Of a DNA stretch of 64,000 nt, positions 3,904 to 52,763 are shown piece after piece; position 1 is the stretch's first letter, and each line of letters starts with the position of its first letter. A program made the position numbers and the translations under genes. Location of the stretch: contig CP040678.1 in NCBI GenBank assembly GCA_005954745.1, forward strand, positions 1,426,001 to 1,490,000, read 5' to 3'. Origin of the DNA: Halostella pelagica (GTDB lineage: Archaea > Halobacteriota > Halobacteria > Halobacteriales > Natronoarchaeaceae). Under the pieces are notes generated by a model that had not been told where the DNA came from, ran no database searches, and saw nothing but the letters and a program-made list of their open reading frames with translations.

Positions 3904-4173
3904 CTAACTACACTGCCTACAGACGCTGGCTGACGGTTCGGTGACGGACCCGCAGTGGTTACAGCGACCGTGGGGGCCGTCAGTTGACGAGATGCCGGGT
4001 ATCACCGCTCGGAGGTTCGGTCGCGGGTCAACGCCGTGAACAGTCTCGATGTGGTCGAGCAAAGCGTCGTCGCGGAGTTTCGATAACCCGCGCCACAGGC
4101 CCAGAAACAGTAGTGTCGGCAGAATACTCAGGAACGCGGTCAGTAGGAGGCGAAACGCGATCTCGGCGTTCAT
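3904..4173 (-). CDS. Membrane-anchored zinc-ribbon protein (downstream of a pair)
   Basis: 89 residues from the ATG at 4173, which overlaps the stop of the upstream gene by ATGA. One N-terminal transmembrane helix (AFRLLLTAFLSILPTLLFLG) is followed by a cytosolic linker and a C-terminal zinc ribbon CNHCG...CRQCS that ends at the last residue. The architecture mirrors the upstream gene, suggesting an ancient duplication or a functional pair. Earlier in-frame starts (to 4242) fall inside the upstream gene and are not needed. Function unknown. Confidence 0.75.
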   Translation of the reverse strand: MNAEIAFRLLLTAFLSILPTLLFLGLWRGLSKLRDDALLDHIETVHGVDPRPNLRAVIPGISSTDGPHGRCNHCGSVTEPSASVCRQCS

Positions 4174-4469
4174 CACCGACCGGCGAGCGGATCGGCACAG
4201 TCCCAACAGAACGTGTACATCGACTCGTTGACCGTGCCGCACGACCTGCAGGACACGGTCTCGGCATCAGTCGAGGACTGGCGACCGGTCGTCGCGGCCG
4301 AATCACCGACGTGACCCGGCGGGGCCGTGTCTGTGGAACGGCCAGCGAGGCGTCGTTCCGAGGTGTCGTCTGACCGCAGATACTCGAGCAGAAGCAGCGG
4401 AATCACGACCAGCAACGGGACGAGCATGACCACCCCCACGTAGAGGATCACGGTTACGAACGATTCCAT
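4173..4469 (-). CDS. Membrane-anchored zinc-ribbon protein (upstream of a pair)
   Basis: 98 residues from ATG 4469 (MESFVTVILYVG). One strong transmembrane helix (residues about 5-30), a Ser/Thr/Gly linker, then a zinc ribbon CRSCGTVNESMYTFCWDC near the C-terminus. A TTAAG element about 32 bases upstream of the ATG fits a leaderless promoter. Translation is coupled to the following, similarly built gene. Zinc ribbons of this kind usually mediate protein-protein contacts; the partner is unknown. Confidence 0.75.
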   Translation of the reverse strand: MESFVTVILYVGVVMLVPLLVVIPLLLLEYLRSDDTSERRLAGRSTDTAPPGHVGDSAATTGRQSSTDAETVSCRSCGTVNESMYTFCWDCADPLAGR

Positions 4470-25799: not shown

Positions 25800-25977
25800 T
25801 GGGGTCGGAGGGATTTGAACCCCCGATCGACTGATATCTCCGGCGCGCCTCGGTACCCCAGAGGGTCGTCAACGCGACCGATGATCAGTCGGTCGCTCGG
25901 TATATCAGTCTGGGATGTCGTCACCGGGCGCTGAAACCTCTGGAGTCAGTCGCCATTCCGGGCTTGGCCACGACCCC
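25800..25977 (-). tRNA. tRNA-Trp (anticodon CCA) with intron
   Basis: 178 bases. Exon 1 (25977-25940) starts GGGGTCG and ends CTCCAG through position 37; exon 2 (25835-25800) is ATCAGT...CGACCCCA. Acceptor GGGGTCG/CGACCCC, anticodon stem ACTGA/TCAGT and T arm GGGGG/CCCTC (two G-T) all pair. The intron (25939-25836, 104 bases) sits after position 37. CCA is not encoded. Confidence 0.93.
25836..25939 (-). ncRNA. tRNA-Trp intron, box C/D guide RNA-like
   Basis: In Haloferax volcanii the intron of pre-tRNA-Trp acts as a C/D RNA directing 2'-O-methylation of C34 and U39. Here the 104-base intron has the same size and place, with box C-like GTGACGA, CTGA boxes and CCTCTGGGG-type sequence complementary to the anticodon region CTCCAGAGG. 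Function is inferred by homology of position and motifs. Confidence 0.72.
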
Positions 25978-33169: not shown

Positions 33170-33652
33170 ATGGACGGGCACGACGCGGCGACGGCGGTGT
33201 ATGCGGGTCTTTTGCTCGTAGTGCTCGGCGGCGTCGCCTGGGCCGCCGGCGAACCGTTCGTTTTCCCGAGTCTCGGACCGTCCGCCTTTCTCATGGCGAA
33301 GGCTCGACGAGGGTCTTCGGTTACGCCCCGGCGGGTCATCGGCGGTCACACTGTCGGCGTCATCGGTGGACTCGTCACCTACGGGTTGGTCGACCCGGGC
33401 GTGGCGCTGTCAACCTCGCTGCCCGCGTTCTCGGAGGGGACACTGGAACTCGCTGTGGCCGCGGCGCTTTCGGTCCTGCTGACGAGCGTCGGGATGCTGG
33501 CCACGAATACGAGCCATCCGCCGGCGTGCGCGACGACGCTCATCGTCGCTCTGGGCGTTCTCCCTACCGTCCGAGCCGGCGCAGTGATCGTCCTCGCGGT
33601 GACGGTCCTCGTCGCGGTTCACGAACTCGTACTGCGGTCGGTAGCGCTATAG
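33170..33652 (+). CDS. HPP-family integral membrane protein
   Basis: 160 residues with about four helices. The HPP motif is present in LATNTSHPPACATTLIVALG, and PFVFPSLGPSAFLMAKA is the other conserved segment. Members include the plastid nitrite transporter, so anion transport is possible but unproven. Its TAG stop is formed by the first bases of a palindromic repeat (33648), so the C-terminus may have been altered by insertion. Confidence 0.88.
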   Translation: MDGHDAATAVYAGLLLVVLGGVAWAAGEPFVFPSLGPSAFLMAKARRGSSVTPRRVIGGHTVGVIGGLVTYGLVDPGVALSTSLPAFSEGTLELAVAAALSVLLTSVGMLATNTSHPPACATTLIVALGVLPTVRAGAVIVLAVTVLVAVHELVLRSVAL

Positions 33653-33731
33653 TAACAGCTGAAACGATTTACACACCGATCGCACAGCTGTCGTGCGATC
33701 GGGTGTGCAATGACTTTCAGTGGCTACTATA
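33648..33731. repeat. Palindromic repeat family 1, copy A
   Basis: 84 bases from TATAGTAACAGCTGAAAC to TTTCAGTGGCTACTATA, an imperfect inverted repeat with inner stem CGATCGCAC...GTGCGATCG. Its reverse complement aligns along the whole length with the copy at 52680-52763. MITE-like. Confidence 0.8.
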
Positions 33732-47286: not shown

Positions 47287-47381
47287 GCCACCGCGTACGG
47301 CGAGGGGGTGCAAAAGCGTGGAGGTGGAGGAATCTCGCACGGGCACTGAACCCGTCTGCTATCGTTCAGCTCTCGAACGAT

Positions 47382-47460
47382 ACTAGTCCCTGAAACGGGT
47401 TACAACTGAGCGCATTGCCGTCGTGCGCTCAGGTGTGTATTGACTGTCAGTGACTACTGG
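47382..47460. repeat. Palindromic repeat family 1, copy B
   Basis: About 79 bases from ACTAGTCCCTGAAACGGG to GTCAGTGACTACTGG, including the family core GCGCATTGCCGTCGTGCGCTCA. Same orientation as copy A; more diverged and with weaker ends. Confidence 0.7.
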
Positions 47461-47475
47461 AGCGTCGTCACCGCA

Positions 47476-52679: not shown

Positions 52680-52763
52680 TATAGTAGTCACTGAAAATCA
52701 ATACATACCTAATCGCACGACATCAATGCGATCAGCGTGTAAATCGGTTCTGTGACTACTATA
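52680..52763. repeat. Palindromic repeat family 1, copy C
   Basis: 84 bases with perfect 12-base inverted ends TATAGTAGTCAC and GTGACTACTATA, and an inner hairpin ATCGCACGACATCAATGCGAT. Aligns over its whole length with the reverse complement of copy A. Best-preserved member. Confidence 0.85.

Follow-up and report, generated by a model that had tools for sequence, protein, structure and literature searches.

The window analysed here, a stretch of 64,000 nucleotides from Halostella pelagica, contains three copies (A, B and C) of a short repeat with inverted ends. The copies and the target duplication of copy C were placed as follows:

52680-52763, plus strand: copy C, the query copy (100%), with an 80-bp MITE (miniature inverted-repeat transposable element) at 52682-52761 and a TA duplicate on each side
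33648-33731, minus strand: copy A, a full-length MITE with intact TATA ends (alignment; E 9.3e-14 to copy C)
47379-47461, minus strand: copy B, a full-length MITE with decayed ends (alignment; E 3.2e-13 to copy C)
52680-52681, no strand: left TA target duplication of copy C, by homology to the empty sites of sister copies
52762-52763, no strand: right TA target duplication of copy C, followed by G (C-TA-G target), by homology to the empty sites of sister copies

In the search of the own genome, copy A matched copy C with 79% identity over the full length and copy B with 80% identity, both in reverse orientation to C. Together with the alignment, these matches bore out the original prediction that the three copies form one family, collinear over the full length, and the 12-base inverted ends that it had described for copy C are indeed perfect. 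The predicted extents of A and C were retained; copy B, which had been put at 47382-47460, was re-placed as listed above. Since empty sites identify the TA at either edge as duplicated target, the element proper of copy C measures 80 bp (52682-52761). For copy C itself no empty allele turned up; the duplication there was assigned from the empty sites of other copies. Copies B and C are both intergenic, each lying between ORFs. Copy A adjoins an ORF (33170-33652) whose TAG stop codon (33650-33652) lies inside the MITE. This stop codon is supplied by the copy A insertion, which may have trimmed or altered the C-terminus of the encoded protein. Elsewhere in the window, a tRNA match of 178 bp (25800-25977) is long for a tRNA and probably represents an intron-containing tRNA gene.

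A search with copy C returned 22 matches in the H. pelagica genome, corresponding to 21 distinct places (one was matched on both strands) on the chromosome and two smaller contigs. The family was also detected in 98 of the 125 sampled Natrialbaceae genomes, in 52 plasmid records (Natrinema, Haloarcula, Natronorubrum, Halomontanus, Natrialba and others) and in at least 118 stretches from many haloarchaeal genera, chiefly Natrinema. Three genomes of one Natrialbaceae genus each held 9-16 of the 84-bp unit among the matches listed; the MITE end motif yielded 50-56 matches per genome there, and a reversed control pattern none. As anticipated for a mobile element, many copies with the same ends were thus found in the own genome and in other haloarchaea, mostly in intergenic positions; the listed plasmid matches fell nearly all at positions without an annotated gene, in records whose annotation is incomplete. 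Phage records contained no match to the MITE, and viral contigs gave 19 scattered matches to its pattern. Copies in the own genome resembled their nearest consensus by 84% on average versus 95% in another genus, a contrast that stems from a small sample and is biased because the latter copies were best hits; on this comparison the family looks old in H. pelagica. Some MITEs occurred as head-to-tail pairs, 1-5 bp apart or with a common TATA (G051 C5, C48, C49; G014 C4:142706-142869), as if the end of one MITE had been the target for the next copy. As a separate observation, homology between a Natrinema zhouii plasmid (L223) and pHH400 (L188:2000-3003) ended at most 3 bp from the left end of a MITE, as if the element marked a rearrangement junction.

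Empty alleles were sought first among the collected loci of related species and then by a joined-flank search in 24 genomes. The empty sites in relatives that the original prediction had called for were found at ten loci, where filled and empty alleles were equal in junction length under a model of 2-bp duplication: the filled allele reads TA-[80 bp]-TA and the empty allele carries a single 2-bp site. This site was TA at seven loci and TG at three:

L023/L224: aacctaac-TA-ctcgcg
L037/L225: caggag-TA-gtgtt
L029/L230: cgaac-TA-ccgctc
L041, L025, L033: also TA
L001/L258: TA, empty site of a copy of the own genome
L035, L020, L068/L061: TG

At three further loci (L003, L022, L073) divergence or ambiguity prevented the junction from being read, and plasmid pHH400 and its CBA1115 relative carried an identical set of copies and hence offered no empty site. 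The element proper accordingly spans 80 bp (TAGTAG...CTACTA) with 17-bp inverted ends. Among 175 full-length copies, the duplicated TA was preceded by C in 81% and followed by G in 78%, so that the target is mostly CTAG (C-TA-G). We also noted that CTAG, though the preferred target of the MITE, is strongly under-represented in the window (50 occurrences versus 221 expected from base composition). The repeats are short, gene-less and multicopy, they bear terminal inverted repeats, and empty sites reveal their target duplication, as is typical of a MITE. Furthermore, transposition of the IS630/Tc1-mariner type duplicates TA (PMC2170065), and the preference of an IS630 transposon for TA within 5'-CTAG-3' is stated in the title of Tenzen and Ohtsubo 1991, as listed in PMC2170065. 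Both features, insertion at TA with TA duplication and a preference for CTAG, were found for the MITE. The TG at three empty sites counts against this assignment.

The MITE folds as a single long hairpin, interrupted by an internal loop and a bulge. Across 155 distinct copies, arm positions 9/76, 11/74 and 12/73 covaried within the terminal repeat, and inner-stem covariation was seen at 31/55 (T-A to C-G) and 38/48 (A-T to C-G). Pairing was found in 4316 of 4650 cells, above all shuffles (mean 4172), which ignore relatedness. Within the collected loci, paired ends were spaced almost only 83-86 bp apart. The exceptions, all lacking a transposase gene, were longer derivatives that keep the outer ends around another core consisting of GC-rich repeat blocks or another hairpin:

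L121:1641-2060: derivative of 420 bp
L102, minus strand: derivative of about 220 bp
L082:3621-3739 and 4085-4204: two derivatives of about 120 bp
L284:1501-1623: derivative of about 120 bp

The family thus seems able to carry other sequence, and since the outer ends are kept around a different core, about 30 bp per end may suffice for mobility.

A structured RNA or cruciform that selection holds in place, such as a terminator or regulatory hairpin, with dispersal as a secondary effect, would agree with the long stable hairpin, with the covarying pairs of the inner stem outside the terminal repeat, with pairing above all shuffles and with the mostly intergenic positions. However, no Rfam 15 match was obtained at the copies at gathering score, the insertion sites are mutually unrelated, vary between species and are empty in relatives, both orientations occur, and the hairpin core is replaced in the longer derivatives. 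Moreover, the shuffles take no account of kinship, and a single transposase reading both ends would be expected to make the ends covary. In the inner stem, covariation may stem either from palindrome-correcting mutation or from selection for the folded shape. We therefore regard an origin as RNA or cruciform as improbable, and the structured intergenic RNA that the original prediction had offered as an alternative became superfluous. There is a slim chance that the hairpin came to be selected after insertion and that copies throughout the haloarchaea have a regulatory role as RNA or cruciforms; if so, a selected hairpin would explain the inner-stem covariation as well as the persistence of the family in transposase-free genomes. 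A reading of the repeats as REP/RAYT elements, considered for the GTAG at the hairpin foot, was dropped because the MITE duplicates TA and has IS630-like termini.

Possible mobilisers were compared within the IS630 family. A domain search located PF13358 (DDE_3) in 75 of the 125 Natrialbaceae genomes, and the best-scoring group consisted of Natrialbaceae transposons of mostly 1,059 bp. In contrast to the gene-less MITE, with which they have no common interior, these elements encode their transposase in two overlapping ORFs, which match HTH_33 and DDE_3 and both also match NF033545 ('IS630 family transposase'). Their termini read CTATAGTAR, and they are preceded by C in 29 of 33 cases and followed by G in 28 of 33, resembling the MITE in both termini and C-TA-G flanks. 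The ends of the IS630 group are TATAGTAGNCGTTAGAAATAATTGCTCACT and TATAGTAACCGTTAGAAC.. (the second end is also given as TATAGTAACCGTTAGAACTTTC..), those of the MITE TATAGTAGCCACTGAAAGTCATTGCACACC and TATAGTAACAACTGAAACGATTTACACACC, with the subterminal end sequence CTGAAAnTCATTGCACAC. The terminal eight bases are identical at both ends, including the G or A at position 8; thereafter the IS630 ends go on with TTAGAA, whereas those of the MITE go on with CTGAAA. For the first end, 21 of 30 positions agreed, with 13 of 22 past the first eight bases (p ~0.0009 by shuffling); the second end matched weakly at 18 of 30 positions, with 10 of 22 past the first eight (p ~0.04). As swapped pairings of the ends performed nearly as well (11/22), the left/right correspondence between MITE and IS630 ends is suggestive only. 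When 31,066 TA sites of the window and 80 loci were scored, MITE ends alone reached at least 20 to the MITE end among the 25 matches listed. One IS630 copy was inserted in a CTAG-like site within a MITE (L300), and the two kinds of element co-occurred: the MITE was present in 67 of the 75 genomes with IS630 versus 31 of the 50 without (p 0.0007, kinship ignored).

The original prediction had noted that no transposase lies in the window, which for the IS630 type (PF13358, the one type tested) was extended to the whole own genome with 0 matches. PF13358 was likewise absent from its four congeners and from several Natrinema genomes whose copies look fresh. Three interior-exclusion pattern searches recovered no autonomous element with the exact 17-bp MITE end, returning only variants, fragments and isolated ends, and no short deletion derivatives with IS630 ends were present in the 1.8 Mb examined. 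An IS630 of the Haloarcula type near the L193 copy was rejected as a partner, as its ends are unrelated and it seems to be a chance neighbour. Because no IS630-type transposase was found in the own genome, the copies there look like relics. Given this absence and the lack of an autonomous element with exact MITE ends, we infer the mobiliser from the likeness of the ends; it would be this IS630 group or a close relative that is lost or unsampled. The several genomes with near-identical copies but without an IS630 transposase, and the missing exact-end partner, could also be reconciled with a TA-duplicating MITE moved by another transposase family, such as an IS5-family group with short TA-type duplications. 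We give this possibility little credence, since the outer 8 bp, the C-TA-G flanks and the subterminal bases are common to the MITE and the IS630 group.

The TA duplication, the CTAG preference and the existence of an IS630 group with like termini and flanks thus mark the MITE as IS630-type. Taken together, the repeats are very probably a haloarchaeal MITE of the IS630/Tc1-mariner kind that depends on a transposase from elsewhere. An IS630-family transposase would recognise both ends of the MITE (TAGTAR and then about 25 bp), excise the 80-bp element and insert it at a TA, preferably within CTAG, whereby the TA would be duplicated; lacking genes, the MITE would rely on this enzyme being supplied from elsewhere. 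Transposition is presumed to proceed by cut-and-paste as in characterised IS630 elements. As the origin of the three copies, the originally predicted non-autonomous element mobilised in trans is supported by the many same-ended copies and the empty sites, and further by the duplicated TA and by a group of transposons whose termini match. The family is an ordinary kind of element, of which no earlier description was found in the open-access literature searched. For a small repeat that is very common in haloarchaeal genomes, this supplies exact ends and a target rule, together with a probable identity and a candidate for the mobiliser. Annotation or masking of the family becomes feasible, and cross-mobilisation by IS630 transposases becomes open to testing in archaea.

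Among the closest known systems, the small mobile repeats SMR-A and SMR-B of Haloquadratum walsbyi resemble the MITE in host and size, being gene-less haloarchaeal elements of 80-110 bp with terminal inverted repeats (PMC3119063). Membership of the MITE in this group is barely conceivable, since SMRs were described without target duplication or a matching transposon (PMC3119063) and are set apart by that description from the MITE, which has a 2-bp duplication and a transposon match. Correia/NEMIS and ERIC are likewise MITEs, short and palindromic, with terminal TA and a duplicated target (PMC2229807), but they are bacterial and differ in sequence and terminal repeat. By analogy, the MITE is the archaeal counterpart of RUP from Streptococcus pneumoniae, a 107-bp repeat with IS630-Spn1 as proposed mobiliser (PMC2229807). 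Like the MITE, RUP is small, palindromic, gene-less, intergenic and multicopy, with terminal TA, target duplication and IS630-like ends (PMC2229807). The two differ in that RUP has a bacterial host and an unrelated sequence, and in that its ends are highly similar to those of an IS630 of the same species, whereas the match of the MITE is partial and its own genome is without the transposase. A TA-targeted hairpin with IS630-like ends is an arrangement found in archaea as in bacteria.
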